From assembly GCA_945870455.1 (NCBI GenBank), contig CAMBSL010000035.1, forward strand, positions 1-33,948: DNA of 33,948 bases, written 5' to 3'. The notes below the pieces were generated by a model, which worked only from the letters and a program-made list of their open reading frames with translations, was not told the origin of the DNA and did not search any database. Position numbers and translations under genes: made by a program. Shown one piece after another: positions 4,247 to 18,852 of the stretch (position 1 is the first letter of the stretch; every line of letters begins with the position of its first letter). This DNA is from Pirellula staleyi DSM 6068 (GTDB taxonomy: Bacteria; Planctomycetota; Planctomycetia; Pirellulales; Pirellulaceae).

Positions 4247-4557
4247 AGAATGGGGTCCTTCTTTGTTGGAATGGGAACAAACCGATCGACCATCCATGGC
4301 TTACCGCTCGAACCGCTCCTTTTTTTCGAGCTAACGTCTTTGGTTATCGTCACATGCAGTCTCCAAAAAACAACGGATTTCACGCTGCATCTACAATCCA
4401 ATCGACCGCCATATTTGAACACCTACTTCCCAGGCTGGACGAATGGGCTTCCCAGGCTGGACGAATGGGCTTCCCAGGTTGGACGAATGGGGAAGATGCG
4501 ATAAACTCTGCATCGGCGTTTTTCCATCTCCCCCTCGTTTTGACTGCCCCTTTTTCT
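4247..4557. other. Gap between divergent small secreted gene and serS
   Basis: 311 bases without a supported gene. The left part should hold the divergent promoters. The right part holds three 22-bp tandem repeats (4427-4492). The serS start region (4540-4557) is pyrimidine-rich and has no Shine-Dalgarno sequence. Confidence 0.5.
4427..4492. repeat. Three tandem 22-bp repeats in the serS leader
   Basis: Units at 4427-4448, 4449-4470 and 4471-4492. The first two are identical; the third differs at two positions (a C to T and the final C to G). The core is CCCAGGCTGGACGAATGGG. There are no spacers between units, so this is not a CRISPR array. The block ends 65 bases before the serS start and would be in the mRNA leader if transcription begins upstream. 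Confidence 0.95.
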
Positions 4558-5832
4558 ATGCTCGATCGCAAATTTGTTTTAGAAAACGCCGAGTTAGTTA
4601 AGGCCAATTGCCTCCATCGAGGTGCTCACGCTGATATCGAGCGATTTGTCGAACTCGAACGCGAACGCAAGACAAAGCTCAATCAGGCCGAAGAGCTGAA
4701 CCGGCAAGCCAATGCCACAAGTGGCAAAATGGGCGGAGCCACGCCCGAACAACGCGAAACGCTCAAAGAAGAAGGGCGAAGACTGCGCGAGCAAAAGGAT
4801 GCTGTCCAAGCCGAGCACGACATGCTAGACAAGGAGATCTCCGCGATTCTGTCTCGCGCCCCAAACATGACCCATCCCGCCGCACCGATCGGAAGAGACG
4901 ATCAAGCCAATCTAGAAATCGCTCGGGGGAAAACTCCGATCCCTACCTTTGATTTCCAGCCACTGGACCATTTGCAATTGGGCAAACAACATGACATGAT
5001 CGACTTTGAGTCCGGAGCTCGCGTGGCAGGTGCTGGTTTTTACTTTCTAAAGAATGATGCAGTTCTGTTGGAATTGGCGTTACAACAGTTGGCCATTCAT
5101 TACTTGATCCAACGCGGATTTGTACCTGTATCAACACCCGATGTCGCGAACACCGAGACCTTGCACGGGATCGGCTTCATCCCCCGTGGCCCCGAAACCC
5201 AGATCTATAGTATTGAGAATACGGATCTCAATCTCGTCGCCACTGCCGAGATCACGCTAGGTGGTATGTATTCCGGGCAAGTGCTGGATGCGGAGCAACT
5301 ACCGCTCAAACTCGTCGGCATAAGCCATTGCTTCCGAACCGAAGCCGGAGCGGCAGGTCGCGCATCCAAAGGACTCTATCGAGTGCATCAGTTCACCAAG
5401 ATCGAAATGTTCGCGTTCACATTGCCAAATCAAAGCGATGCGATCCACGAGGAATTGCGGCAGCTCGAATGCGACCTGTTTGATCAGCTCGAAGTCGCGT
5501 ATCGCGTGGTGGATACAGCGACCGGCGATCTTGGTGGTCCGGCGTATCGCAAATATGACTTAGAAGCCTGGATGCCAGGTCGAGGTACTGCCGGCGAATG
5601 GGGAGAGGTCACCAGCACGTCCAATTGCACGGACTATCAAGCACGCAGGCTCAATATTCGCTACAAAACGAAAAATGAAAAAGGGACACATCTAGTTCAC
5701 ACGCTCAACGGCACCGCCATCGCGATCAGCCGAGCCATCATCGCGATCATGGAAAACCATCAAATGGCAGATGGCCGCATCCGAGTTCCGGCCGCGTTGA
5801 GACCATGGATGGGCAAAGAAATCATCGGTTAA
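4558..5832 (+). CDS. serS: Serine--tRNA ligase
   Basis: Class II aminoacyl-tRNA synthetase that charges tRNA-Ser. 424 residues, the normal bacterial length. The N-terminus (MLDRKFVLENAELVK) leads into the long antiparallel coiled-coil tRNA-binding arm, rich in Glu, Lys and Arg (about 30-105). The catalytic core follows: ISHCFRTEAGAAGRASKGLY is motif 2, and LNGTAIAISRAIIAIMENHQ with VPAALRPWMG near the C-terminus is motif 3. The start at 4558 fits the family; in-frame sequence further upstream encodes the 22-bp repeats and is rejected as leader. There is no visible Shine-Dalgarno, as for several genes here. Its stop is 11 bases from the stop of the convergent Tgl-like gene. Confidence 0.97.
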   Translation: MLDRKFVLENAELVKANCLHRGAHADIERFVELERERKTKLNQAEELNRQANATSGKMGGATPEQRETLKEEGRRLREQKDAVQAEHDMLDKEISAILSRAPNMTHPAAPIGRDDQANLEIARGKTPIPTFDFQPLDHLQLGKQHDMIDFESGARVAGAGFYFLKNDAVLLELALQQLAIHYLIQRGFVPVSTPDVANTETLHGIGFIPRGPETQIYSIENTDLNLVATAEITLGGMYSGQVLDAEQLPLKLVGISHCFRTEAGAAGRASKGLYRVHQFTKIEMFAFTLPNQSDAIHEELRQLECDLFDQLEVAYRVVDTATGDLGGPAYRKYDLEAWMPGRGTAGEWGEVTSTSNCTDYQARRLNIRYKTKNEKGTHLVHTLNGTAIAISRAIIAIMENHQMADGRIRVPAALRPWMGKEIIG

Positions 5833-5843
5833 CACTGCCGAGT

Positions 5844-7004
5844 TCACAATGAAACGCGGTCGACATCCGGAAGCACAATGTCGCTCGTTCCAGGGCACAC
5901 CCATCTCGGATACTCGCGAGACGGATCGATACACCCGCCTTCCAAATAAACACCGCGCGGATCTTGGAGTCTTTCCATCGATTGCATGATCTGACCTATT
6001 TCGGCAGGATTTGCGAGCGATGATCGGATATGGGACTGAACGACATTCTCATCGATTCGCAGTTCACCGGTATTGTCGCGATAGGTTGCATTCCGCCAGT
6101 GAAAAATCTCTAAGCATTTTGCTTGCAGAGTAAAGGATTGATTGCTCTTCCAAAAATCGCTAAACAACCCATCTCCCAGATAAAATACCCATGACCCTTC
6201 GAAGCCAACCGCATCGGACGAAACGATGTCCGGGTTGCGAAACCAAACCCGATCACCTGGTACATAGTATTTGGCAGGCAGTGGATTTTCGCGAGAACCG
6301 TATTCTCTCATGAAAACCTCATGGAATTCACCGGAACGAATCGAACGTTGTTCCGCTTGATGTTGAAGTCGTTTGAGCAGTTCTCGATTGCAACAATTTG
6401 CTTCTTCGGCCAATCCCAAAGCGACGATGTATTCTGTCGCCCGATAGCATGAAAAAGAATACGCGGTAACGCCTTCTGGTGGTTGCGTTGCATTCCGCAA
6501 GGCCTCGATCATGCATTTGCCAGGGCGAACGATAAATCCACGGTTCTCATCGTAGTCCCAGTATTCAATGGGTCGTTCCGCCTCGTAAGCAGCAAAGGAA
6601 AGAAAGGTCTTTCTCGCAGCTTCAACAATGTTGCATCGAACGCGAATGGCAGATTCCAATTCGTTCACGCTTGGGAACTCAAACGGGACGGGACCAGCCA
6701 GCATCGCAAAAAGTATTTCTTTTTCAAGATCGCTTCGATCTCGATTGGATAACGAAAGCCGAGTTGCCAATTGCAGAGTATCCCCACCCGGCGTCCATTG
6801 ATCGAGTCCTTCTTTCACAAATCCAAACTGAACGACGGGGCAAGGGCCAGAAAGCATTAGGCCGATATCGACATTTCCTATCATTCCTCGCTTTTCAAGC
6901 CAATCAAGGCACTGGTCGACCGTTCGGTCCGAGGATCCAGCCGCCTGATTCCAAACACAAATCCCACCACCTCTTCGATTCTGACTCTCCGCGACTCGAT
7001 CCAT
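5844..7004 (-). CDS. Divergent Tgl-family (spore-coat type) protein-glutamine gamma-glutamyltransferase homologue
   Basis: 386 residues. Residues about 105-310 line up, from memory, with Bacillus subtilis Tgl (245 residues): GPVPFEFPSVNELESAIRVR, CNIVEAA, then TAYSFSCYRATEYIVALGL, which matches the catalytic segment of Tgl (FYAFEC). GDRVWFRNPD then matches GDCLYFKNPE, and WVFYLGDGLF matches the NVILLGEDKY region. The nucleophile is kept as Cys186. The partners are not: Glu115, Glu187 and His200 of B. subtilis align with Ser185, Ser271 and Phe284. About 105 extra N-terminal and 70 C-terminal residues are unlike Bacillus Tgl and contain several cysteines. No signal peptide is visible, so a cytoplasmic location is inferred. 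Cross-linking activity is doubtful. It is convergent with serS and divergent from the acyltransferase. Confidence 0.7.
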   Translation of the reverse strand: MDRVAESQNRRGGGICVWNQAAGSSDRTVDQCLDWLEKRGMIGNVDIGLMLSGPCPVVQFGFVKEGLDQWTPGGDTLQLATRLSLSNRDRSDLEKEILFAMLAGPVPFEFPSVNELESAIRVRCNIVEAARKTFLSFAAYEAERPIEYWDYDENRGFIVRPGKCMIEALRNATQPPEGVTAYSFSCYRATEYIVALGLAEEANCCNRELLKRLQHQAEQRSIRSGEFHEVFMREYGSRENPLPAKYYVPGDRVWFRNPDIVSSDAVGFEGSWVFYLGDGLFSDFWKSNQSFTLQAKCLEIFHWRNATYRDNTGELRIDENVVQSHIRSSLANPAEIGQIMQSMERLQDPRGVYLEGGCIDPSREYPRWVCPGTSDIVLPDVDRVSL

Positions 7005-7254: not shown

Positions 7255-8406
7255 ATGATGATCAGGGTTTTCTCTACGTTGGGCCACTTCCATTCCTCGG
7301 TGGTTTCGACCCTTGTCGGAGAACAGCCCAGCTACATAAATGCCGGGCAACGTGTTGCGTTGCTCGACGGAATCAAAGGAATAGCCGCTTGTGTCATCGT
7401 AGGACATCACTTGAGCGAATTCTCGCCAAGCGCGGAACTGGCCAATCAATTTGCGCCAAGTCTGATGTATGGGATTTACAACTACGGATTGTTTATTGTT
7501 CACCTATTTTTCGTCTTCGGTGGATTCGCATTGGCGATGGCGATGCCCGACGAAACGATTTCATGGCGTAAAGCTTTCTCCTCCTTCGGAACAAGATACG
7601 TCCGCTTAGCGGTTCCCTATCTTGTCATGCTACTCCTCTTGGTTGCTGTGTCCTGGTCAGCCTTGGGTCGCACCATGGAGCCGCCGCTAATCGATTCCTT
7701 TTCTTGGTCGCAATTGTTCGCTCACGTGTTTTTTCTTCAAGATGTACTGGGCTATGGGAATTTGTCGGCGGGCACATGGTATTTATGTATCGATCTTCAG
7801 TACGTGGGCCTGTTTTTGATGATTCAGGCATTGCTGAATACGGTAGGAAAAGTCACTCGGCAGGATTTCGACGGACCCGTTGCTATGTCCGTAGTATTGA
7901 TTCCTCTGGGGTTGGTATCCGTCTGGTATTGGAATCGAATCCTCGAGTACGAGGTCTTTGTTTTTTACTTCCTGGGGCCACTGGTCCTAGGTTCGCTTAT
8001 CGCATGGACACTCAAAGGCAAAATCTCTTGGTGGGTACTTCTCTTTTATGCGACAGCCATGACAGCGTCCCTCGCGATCGAATTTCGACCAAGAGTCTTA
8101 GTTGGGCTCGGCTCAGGGCTGATCCTGGTCGCGTGTATCCGATTCTGGCAGACGCTTCCGATTCCGTCACCCATACTTTGGCTGGGGAAAGTCTCGTATA
8201 GTTTGTTCCTAATTCACTATTTGGTGAATGGAGTGGTATTGAATGGACTAGATCCTTGGATAGGTAGTAGCCCCGCGCGGGCCTTTGCTGCCCTACCGAT
8301 CGCCTTCTTGGCAAGCCTTGTTGCCGCAGCGGGACTGTACTATTGGGTCGAAGCCCCAAGCGATCGATTTCTCAAATCGCTGCGGAAGAAACGCTGTCAC
8401 CCCTAG
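7255..8406 (+). CDS. Acyltransferase-3 family integral membrane protein
   Basis: 383 residues, very hydrophobic, with about ten membrane segments and a short basic C-terminal tail (SLRKKR). The opening of the domain, LLDGIKGIAACVIVGHHL at about 36-53, is the family signature with the catalytic-type histidine at 51 or 52. FFVFGGFALAM and the late KVSYSLFLIHYL also fit. These enzymes move acetyl or other acyl groups onto exported sugars, lipopolysaccharide or peptidoglycan. The acceptor is unknown here, since no polysaccharide cluster lies next to it. There are two adjacent Met codons (7255 and 7258), so the start is uncertain by one residue. It precedes sufR by 97 bases but is functionally unrelated to it. 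Confidence 0.87.
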   Translation: MMIRVFSTLGHFHSSVVSTLVGEQPSYINAGQRVALLDGIKGIAACVIVGHHLSEFSPSAELANQFAPSLMYGIYNYGLFIVHLFFVFGGFALAMAMPDETISWRKAFSSFGTRYVRLAVPYLVMLLLLVAVSWSALGRTMEPPLIDSFSWSQLFAHVFFLQDVLGYGNLSAGTWYLCIDLQYVGLFLMIQALLNTVGKVTRQDFDGPVAMSVVLIPLGLVSVWYWNRILEYEVFVFYFLGPLVLGSLIAWTLKGKISWWVLLFYATAMTASLAIEFRPRVLVGLGSGLILVACIRFWQTLPIPSPILWLGKVSYSLFLIHYLVNGVVLNGLDPWIGSSPARAFAALPIAFLASLVAAAGLYYWVEAPSDRFLKSLRKKRCHP

Positions 8407-17118: not shown

Positions 17119-18852
17119 ATGTCAAAGCCATCAACAATGATCCGACACTCACTTCTTTTCTTTTTCTTGTTCCTGACTTGCGTTCCTGGCTGCGAAACGA
17201 GAATACCCGAACCACCCGACGAGAGAACGGAAAGAATCCTTCAAGACTTGGGCGTTGTACCCCAACCCAAACCTGTTAAGTCCGAAGACTCGTCTGCCGA
17301 TTCTAGGGTCGAGGCTGATCAAACAATGGCCGATGAGCGGTCGGTTATCCAGCCAACGTCATCTGTTGATAATGTGACCAAGCGTTGGATCACCGCAGAT
17401 CAATTGCCGCGAGAGATCTGGGAGGTTCAGTATATTGGCAACAACCCGATCGGATACATGCACCGAAAAGTAAGTGTTACCGAAAGCTCAGGATTTGAGA
17501 TCGAAGCCAACAGTCGAACAACGGTTTCGATCAAGGGTGAGCCATTGGTCCAACGATTGAAGATCAATACCACCGAAACCGAAACCGGCGCATTGCGCCG
17601 AATAGAAGGATCGATTGAAATTGGCGACAACAAGCAGACTTTCGAAGGCAATGTAAATAGCAGTGACGGCAAGATGACTTTGAAAGGCATCAACAATGGA
17701 CAAGCGACTCCCGAACTCACCATCGACTGGAATCCGGAATATCGAGGTCCATTTGCCGTCGATCAGTCCATGCTGCGTCAACCGCTCGTACCAAAGGAAA
17801 CGCGTAAGCTTAAGTACTTTGATCCGATTTTGGGCAAAGTCGTCGAGGGGAAATTAAAGGCAGCGGACGATTTCTTTAAAACGCCCACCATGTTCGTTGG
17901 CTCGCGTCATCTTTTGGAAGTTAGCAACATAAGCACCGTTGGCAACGATACGATGCAAGCCTTTTTATGGGTAGACGAAAAAGGCGAGGGCTACAAATCG
18001 ATCATGCAGTCCGCAGATATTCGTTCGTTTCGAACGGAGCCAATTGATGCCCAAATTCTCGCTTCTGTTTTCGACCTGCGCGCGATTTCGTCCAAAACAA
18101 TCAAATTGGCAGGTGAAGTGGATCGGTTGATGAGCAACGGCACCAACATCGTTTCTGAAACGTTTCGCATGAAAAACAGTAACAATGATCCGTTTAAGCT
18201 GTTTTCGGATCGGACCAATCAATCCAAAAAATCACAAAACGCAAGTACCGTGGACATAACTGTCTTTCGAGTTGGATTAAACCCAAACGAGATGGATGGA
18301 GTGGAACTAAAAATGGACAACGATGCCAGTTCGCAAGTTGACTCCGATTTCATCCCATCCAAAAGCCCCATTATCCAAGCGTTCGCCCGAGCATTGGTTG
18401 CGTCCGAATCCAAGCTCGATGAAGGCAACATGTCACTTTTTGAAAAAGTGAAGGTTTGCAGGGAAGAACTAGTCAAGCAAATTAAATTCAAGGAATTTGA
18501 TAATCAAATCGGTTCAGTGCTGGAAACCACGAAAAGCAAACAAGCCGATTGCGTCGAACATGCTCTCCTTTTCGCATCCGTATGCAGAGCAATGGGTATT
18601 CCGACCAGAATTGCTCTCGGAATGATTTTTAACCGCAACAAGGAAGAGCCTGAAATGAAGTTTCATGCGTGGATCGAATTCCACGATGGTGAACGCTGGG
18701 TACCAAGCGATTCGAGCGACCAACAATTTCCAACTTCGATCGATCGAATCAAGGTACTTGAGTCGAATTTCACAGACCCGAACCCTTACTTGGATATCCT
18801 CAAGGTCTATCAAATCATGACCGAACTTGAGATTAGCGTCCTGTCTCAGTAG
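17119..18852 (+). CDS. Lipoprotein with C-terminal transglutaminase-like (papain-fold) domain
   Basis: 577 residues. The N-terminus is a lipoprotein signal (hydrophobic Phe/Leu run, then VPGC with lipidated Cys25). A polar, probably flexible stretch follows (about 30-85), then a beta-rich region (about 90-390) and the Transglut_core domain (about 440-545). The triad is visible: DCVEH (Cys478), FHAWIEF (His516) and PSDSS (Asp531). Such exported domains act as proteases, cross-linkers or amidases on cell-surface proteins; the substrate is unknown. It begins a three-gene block with the glycosyltransferase 30 bases downstream, suggesting an envelope role. The fold differs from the Tgl-like protein at 5844-7004, so the two are not paralogues. 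Confidence 0.87.
   Translation: MSKPSTMIRHSLLFFFLFLTCVPGCETRIPEPPDERTERILQDLGVVPQPKPVKSEDSSADSRVEADQTMADERSVIQPTSSVDNVTKRWITADQLPREIWEVQYIGNNPIGYMHRKVSVTESSGFEIEANSRTTVSIKGEPLVQRLKINTTETETGALRRIEGSIEIGDNKQTFEGNVNSSDGKMTLKGINNGQATPELTIDWNPEYRGPFAVDQSMLRQPLVPKETRKLKYFDPILGKVVEGKLKAADDFFKTPTMFVGSRHLLEVSNISTVGNDTMQAFLWVDEKGEGYKSIMQSADIRSFRTEPIDAQILASVFDLRAISSKTIKLAGEVDRLMSNGTNIVSETFRMKNSNNDPFKLFSDRTNQSKKSQNASTVDITVFRVGLNPNEMDGVELKMDNDASSQVDSDFIPSKSPIIQAFARALVASESKLDEGNMSLFEKVKVCREELVKQIKFKEFDNQIGSVLETTKSKQADCVEHALLFASVCRAMGIPTRIALGMIFNRNKEEPEMKFHAWIEFHDGERWVPSDSSDQQFPTSIDRIKVLESNFTDPNPYLDILKVYQIMTELEISVLSQ

Follow-up and report, generated by a model that had tools for sequence, protein, structure and literature searches.

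What reaction, if any, is carried out by a protein of the Tgl transglutaminase family in a bacterium that forms no spores? The window, that is, the whole stretch of 33,948 nucleotides of Pirellula staleyi DSM 6068 analysed here, contains a minus-strand open reading frame (5844–7004) that starts with ATG and encodes a protein of 386 amino acids. In the first-pass annotation, this protein was described as a Tgl homologue outside spore formers that keeps only the cysteine of the active site. We analysed its family and fold, the conservation of its putative active site, and the genes and genomes with which it occurs.

Based on profile searches, PF20085 (TGL) was the sole Pfam family matched by the protein (E value of 8e-32). 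The score of 110.9 bits against a curated cut-off of 23.7 is the clear match to the TGL family that had been proposed beforehand as a check. The sequence motifs IVEAA, YSFSC and GDRVWFRNPD, on which the family call had been based, were all present in the translation. Among solved structures, only two Tgl proteins matched meaningfully by sequence, namely, 7c9j of Geobacillus (3.5e-9) and, weakly, 4p8i of Bacillus subtilis (0.029). An AlphaFold2 model was built from an 18-row alignment (mean pLDDT of 83.7, pTM of 0.88), and a Foldseek search with this model gave the same two proteins as the sole matches below 0.001 (4p8i, 2.5e-7; 7c9j, 1.5e-6). VIA-align Z scores were 16.6 to B. subtilis Tgl and 14.3 to the Geobacillus protein. 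The protein is therefore a member of the TGL family by both sequence and fold, with B. subtilis Tgl as the closest match to its predicted fold. The first-pass annotation had also pointed to large additional parts at both termini; the protein is indeed longer at both ends (386 residues vs approximately 245 in Tgl), yet the structural alignment to Tgl covers model residues 14–374. The positions of all features are listed in Table 1.

Table 1. Features of the TGL gene and its product, in window coordinates
Feature	Position	Strand	Remark
Gene for the 386-residue TGL-fold thiol protein	5844..7004	-	Stop codon 5844-5846; dN/dS ~0.2
N-terminal part, residues 1-86, ahead of the Pfam TGL match	6747..7004	-	Gly14 invariant, 28/28
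TGL domain, residues 87-281	6162..6746	-	PF20085 match
C-terminal part, residues 282-386	5847..6161	-	His302 and Asp360 invariant
Cys186, aligned with catalytic Cys116 of Tgl	6447..6449	-	Invariant, 28/28
Ser185, replacing Glu115 of Tgl	6450..6452	-	Invariant, 28/28
Glu269, replacing Arg185 of Tgl, two positions ahead of the Glu187 site	6198..6200	-	Invariant, 28/28 and 9/9 subfamily II rows
Ser271, replacing Glu187 of Tgl	6192..6194	-	Invariant, 28/28
Phe284, replacing His200 of Tgl (ungapped reading)	6153..6155	-	Invariant, 28/28
His228, candidate partner of Cys186	6321..6323	-	Invariant in subfamily I

The next structural matches, with VIA-align Z scores of approximately 4 to 6, were proteins of the NlpC/P60 type, in whose papain-like core, as in the window protein, a cysteine opens a helix. 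A section of PMC10318531 places TGL together with NlpC/P60, CHAP and amidases. Unlike these peptidases and amidases, the window protein gave no NlpC/P60 family match in Pfam or NCBIfam. Among the NCBIfam matches up to an E value of 10, none was to the cyanophycinase model TIGR02069, and release 20.0 of NCBIfam holds no model naming the TGL subfamily described below. The score against the NCBIfam Tgl equivalog NF002869 was 44.2 bits, well below the cut-off of 307.

The catalytic cysteine is residue 116 in both PDB chains, 4p8i and 7c9j, and is aligned with Cys186, which lies at the start of helix 186–205 in the AlphaFold2 model. At the other catalytic positions, Glu115 of Tgl is aligned with Ser185, and Glu187 (Glu188 in 7c9j numbering) with Ser271. 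Phe284 replaces His200 only if the alignment runs ungapped past F281, where MAFFT introduces a gap; no histidine of the window protein was aligned at His200. Judging from these residues (the histidine on the ungapped reading) and from the equivalog score, the protein would fall outside the Tgl transglutaminase group. As counted from the aligned columns, the positions of Tyr171 and Trp184 are still aromatic (Trp254 and Phe268), as they are in Bacillus Tgl, with which the PGD and NPD motifs are also shared, whereas Arg185 is replaced by Glu269 and Asn188 by Trp272. The counterparts of Phe69 and Trp149 are possibly Phe137 and Phe227 by phmmer, while MAFFT puts them elsewhere.

To assess conservation, 31 homologues were aligned, and the 28 full-length rows were used for counting after exclusion of three partial ones (L039, L018 and L025). 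These homologues, of approximately 42 to 95 % identity, come from Pirellula and Betaproteobacteria (Thiobacillus, Polaromonas, Limnohabitans, Bordetella, Rhodocyclaceae and others), and are referred to here as subfamily I. In this survey, which the first-pass annotation had suggested for Cys186 and its neighbours in planctomycete homologues, Ser185, Cys186, Ser271 and Phe284 were invariant in 28/28, and so were His228, Asp251, Asp259, Glu269, Glu299, His302 and Asp360. Because of this invariance, the replacement of the Tgl residues is a property of the whole subfamily and not a sign of decay. The gene is under purifying selection, with Nei–Gojobori dN/dS ratios of 0.20 against the Pirellula copy L020 (95 % identical) and 0.18 against L021 (86 %); the comparison with L022 was saturated. 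A tree built from 48 rows grouped all 12 rows of Pirellula in a single clade (100/100); the program warned of long branches.

In a mutational study of Tgl, C116A, E115A, H200A, W149A and Y171A are reported to be inactive, whereas F69A and N188A show residual activity, R185A and W184A are reduced in activity, and E187A retains approximately 60 % (PMC6490927). Since loss of Glu115 or His200 abolishes the transglutaminase activity of Tgl in that account, the reaction of the window protein probably differs from that of Tgl, and by this analogy ordinary transglutaminase chemistry seems unlikely for it. The earlier statement that the cysteine is kept while three acid/base residues are gone thus holds for the cysteine and for the aligned residues; an acid or base may nevertheless remain among the invariant residues His228, His302, Asp251 and Asp259. 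The suggestion of a thiol enzyme of another kind gains support, as a reading, from the residue pattern common to all 28 homologues.

Weaker matches define a second group, subfamily II (L015, L016, the second match in L069 at L069:15251-16498, and L070–L075). Here the cysteine is invariant in 9/9 rows, Glu115 is replaced by Gly, and Glu187 by Ser or Cys; by eye, a hydrophobic N-terminal leader is present in seven of the nine N-termini printed. Glu269 is common to 9/9 subfamily I and 9/9 subfamily II rows; in the four Tgl-type rows of that alignment, this position is occupied by Arg, Gln (twice) and Ser. One of the reference rows, a Bacillus-type Tgl on a megaplasmid of Niallia taxi (L087) that is unannotated in its record, has Val at the Glu187 position and is thus an imperfect reference. 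Two other planctomycete TGL proteins (L042 and L044) retain both Glu187 and His200. In a Pirellula relative, a TGL-like stretch (L017, on G023:C116; E value of 1.9e-6) lies within an open frame of 3298 amino acids. The window itself encodes a second, unrelated transglutaminase-like protein (Transglut_core, PF01841) at 17119–18852.

The TGL gene of the window is separated by 11 nt from the end of the plus-strand frame 4354–5832, whose sequence resembles seryl-tRNA synthetase; on its other side, an acyltransferase-3 gene (7255–8406, plus strand) is transcribed divergently from it. Acyltransferase-3 genes also adjoin TGL in two Pirellula loci (L020 and L021) and two beta-proteobacterial loci (L026:7009-8034 and L031:4701-5867); this adjacency in five loci is perhaps due to chance, the family being common. 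Cph genes aside, we detected no neighbour of TGL that recurs broadly across the first 22 loci and the window, and none of the genes examined around TGL in the window is a cph gene. The window TGL gave no PADLOC match that would point to an anti-phage role, and tblastn at 1e-5 detected no plasmid or phage copies of the gene.

Cyanophycin is a polymer in which bacteria store nitrogen. Of 36 subfamily I loci, read with flanks of unequal length, some of which end early, four carry a gene for cyanophycin synthetase (CphA) and 32 carry no cph gene; six further loci that were read represent subfamily II alone. The four loci belong to three lineages. In Thiobacillus thioparus (L029), TGL follows genes for an ABC transporter and a DUF1854 protein, with 22 nt between the DUF1854 stop codon and TGL, and lies beside a cyanophycin synthetase-like gene; these CphA and ABC transporter genes are also present, as judged by similarity, in the closely related L028. 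In L067, a cphA2-like gene, cphA1 and TGL lie in this order on one strand, and the ATG of TGL overlaps the stop codon of cphA1 by 4 nt (ATGA). In L068, TGL lies at the end of a cph cluster, convergent with the DUF1854 gene at a distance of 8 nt. The ABC transporter (NF052233) and the DUF1854 protein (NF052234), both labelled as cyanophycin metabolism-associated in NCBIfam, adjoin TGL in L029 and L068, and the transporter does so also in L067; they are neighbours of TGL but unrelated proteins. In the tree, L067 and L028/L029 fell into separate supported groups, each beside relatives without cph linkage, while L068 was set apart and its placement was not resolved. Placement of TGL inside a cph cluster was found in 2 of 23 genomes, for which a rough model gives a chance of approximately 0.002 to 0.008.

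We then compared, across 300 Burkholderiales genomes, the distribution of TGL with that of CphA (positive at E values up to 1e-100). Matches to the subfamily I profile were obtained in 30 of the genomes, in 24 strongly and in six through subfamily II proteins alone; two of the 24 carry an extra weak match, which was checked as subfamily II in G553 (the second is in G419). CphA was detected in 114 of the 300 genomes overall, in 23 of the 24 with subfamily I (Fisher test, 8e-10, with kinship ignored) and in all six found solely through subfamily II. The lone strong TGL-positive genome without CphA, G525, has only a weak ligase-domain match (1e-20). Its TGL match is in two pieces (on C47 and C73), one of them with a stop codon; this may reflect a faulty assembly, or possibly a TGL gene that is decaying now that CphA has been lost.

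As an unrelated control, one family, RuBisCO, was scored in the same genomes (E values up to 1e-60; 126 positives of 300). Its own tie to CphA was weak (56/126 vs 58/174, p=0.055), but it was enriched in TGL-positive genomes (18/24 vs 108/276, p=9e-4), indicating that some lineage bias exists. The tie between TGL and CphA was seen both within the RuBisCO-positive genomes (17/18 vs 39/108) and within the RuBisCO-negative ones (6/6 vs 52/168). Likewise, CphA was detected in 20 of 21 genomes of the first homologues, above the cut-off in 17 and in pieces or below it in three, with G365 as the exception; this set of 21 of 22 genomes (L039 excluded) includes five Pirellula genomes that are also counted in the genus below, and overlaps the 300 in two.

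In the genus of the window, CphA was detected in all 27 genomes and strong TGL in 14 (13 without). With CphA present throughout, the genus is uninformative about co-occurrence. Among 33 order-mates outside the genus, CphA was present in 11 and strong TGL in none; weak subfamily II matches in two genomes outside the genus (G040 and G058) were both in CphA genomes. The genome of the window has a full CphA (on G000:C222), which is not near the TGL gene. Across 294 genomes of Planctomycetota, 34 have CphA, seven have any TGL-family protein and two have both. The description of the protein as lying outside spore formers is thus correct, but its occurrence there is not rare, considering these seven planctomycete genomes and the 30 of 300 Burkholderiales with profile matches. 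Together, co-occurrence and cph clusters give good support for a tie between subfamily I and cyanophycin metabolism. In this, subfamily I differs from Bacillus Tgl, its tie being to cyanophycin synthetase and not to spore coat genes. In the literature searched (titles, the starts of abstracts and some passages, with subscription papers and preprints outside its scope), we found no tie between TGL and cyanophycin.

In cyanophycin, each Arg is attached to the backbone Asp through a side-chain isopeptide bond, and the known enzymes CphB, CphE and CphI cut the backbone peptide bonds, according to the sections of PMC10206079 consulted. There, Sharon and Schmeing describe a recognizable cyanophycinase in only 2.8 % of 903 beta-proteobacterial CphA1 genomes, a result called ‘unanticipated’, and propose cyanophycinase isozymes as yet unknown (PMC10206079); a passage from 2016 states that no cyanophycinase was known in Betaproteobacteria (PMC5178258). 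In our sample, a TIGR02069 match (1e-10) was detected in 18 of the 114 CphA-positive Burkholderiales, leaving 96 without. Subfamily I was present in 21 of these 96 and in 2 of the 18, indicating no enrichment (p=0.52), and it was not found in 91 of the 114. The idea that TGL is the general missing cyanophycinase of Betaproteobacteria was rejected on these grounds; because only 21 of the 96 have subfamily I, the TGL protein could be one solution among several. For the genus of the window, S51/cyanophycinase-family matches (1e-5) were obtained in 26 of the 27 genomes, and the genome of the window itself encodes two S51 proteins over the cyanophycinase cut-off.

A role of TGL in making primers for CphA1 was also considered. 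In the relevant passages of PMC9262961, CphA1 without the Cx19HxxEH site is expected to require primers, and cyanobacterial CphA2 is said to be without this motif. The full motif was found in 0/20 CphA1 proteins of TGL-positive and 0/20 of TGL-negative Burkholderiales (L097–L136), with the HxxEH part alone in 2/20 of the TGL-negative set. The CphA1 proteins of L067 (4759–6960) and L068 (9253–11466) are also without it, while every Pirellula CphA1 examined carries it, whether TGL-positive or TGL-negative. The motif therefore does not track TGL, and the role as primer maker is not supported. The tandem CphA2-like proteins of L028, L029, L067 and L068 do carry Cx19HxxEH, the motif that makes primers in CphA1, so that another cyanophycin-cutting activity may already exist in these clusters.

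Taking these results together, we infer a reaction on cyanophycin, and judge the chances to be about even that the window protein is a thiol enzyme of cyanophycin metabolism with a TGL (NlpC/P60-like) fold, which hydrolyses the side-chain isopeptide bonds or uses them for acyl transfer. As an active cysteine enzyme, it would use Cys186 to attack the side-chain carbonyl of the beta-Asp–Arg isopeptide bond, which chemically resembles the side-chain amide attacked by Tgl. The resulting acyl-enzyme could be resolved by water, mobilizing the polymer, or by another amine, by which the polymer would be capped, cross-linked or anchored. The invariant Glu269, at the predicted substrate entrance, would suit the binding of an arginine side chain. 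Several results count against this reading: subfamily I is missing from 91 of the 114 CphA-positive Burkholderiales and from 13 of 27 genomes of the genus of the window, strong TGL is missing from all 11 CphA-positive order-mates outside it, 32 of 36 loci carry no cph gene, two TGL-positive genomes (G525 and G365) are without CphA in their assemblies, and TGL is enriched with RuBisCO but not with the lack of a cyanophycinase match. More tentatively, we propose that a TGL-fold cysteine enzyme that breaks or remakes beta-Asp–Arg isopeptide bonds represents a cyanophycin-processing class of its own. This class would be shared by Betaproteobacteria and Pirellula, and would account in part for how the polymer is degraded or modified, a step unrecognizable in most cyanophycin-making Betaproteobacteria. 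Such a class might share its substrate with CphB, CphE and CphI, but would be unrelated to that family (TIGR02069, peptidase family S51) and differ from their action on the backbone (as given in PMC10206079).

Among the alternatives, the one that survives best, though we consider it unlikely, is a pseudoenzyme that binds cyanophycin or sits on the granule surface, with the tunnel of Tgl but without its chemistry and with a structural or redox-active cysteine. The loss of Glu115, Glu187 and His200 throughout subfamily I, together with the inactivity of the E115A and H200A mutants in the data consulted (PMC6490927), would fit this proposal, and the tie to CphA fits it equally well; against it, the cysteine is invariant in both subfamilies (28/28 and 9/9) and opens the nucleophile helix in the model, and further acids and histidines are also invariant. 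Less probable again is a thiol enzyme unrelated to cyanophycin, for which the tie to CphA would come from lineage or lifestyle and the cluster placements would be accidental. The weak RuBisCO–CphA tie, the cluster placement in three lineages, including the overlap with cphA1, and the low chance estimated by the rough model for the 2 of 23 placements all argue against such an enzyme, whereas the enrichment of RuBisCO in TGL-positive genomes, measured with one control family, the 32 of 36 loci without a cph gene and the failure of Planctomycetota TGL-family proteins at large to follow CphA (2/7) are in its favour. We consider a genuine protein-cross-linking transglutaminase improbable; its substrates might be proteins surrounding cyanophycin granules, and Cys186 would be paired with an acid at another position, for instance Glu269. 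The fold, the position of the cysteine, the invariance of Glu269 (close to the Glu187 site) in subfamilies I and II and the approximately 60 % activity that Tgl retains without Glu187 (E187A; PMC6490927) are outweighed by Ser, Phe and Trp at the positions of Glu115, His200 and Asn188, whose mutants had no or residual activity in the same data, and by the distance from the Tgl equivalog cut-off.

The preferred reading, a thiol enzyme of cyanophycin metabolism, makes the subfamily I protein a candidate for a cyanophycin-processing step in approximately one-fifth (23/114) of the sampled CphA genomes. If this is true, the transglutaminase fold, used elsewhere to cross-link proteins, would have been turned to a storage polymer of non-ribosomal origin; its cysteine would have been kept and the partners of that cysteine exchanged.
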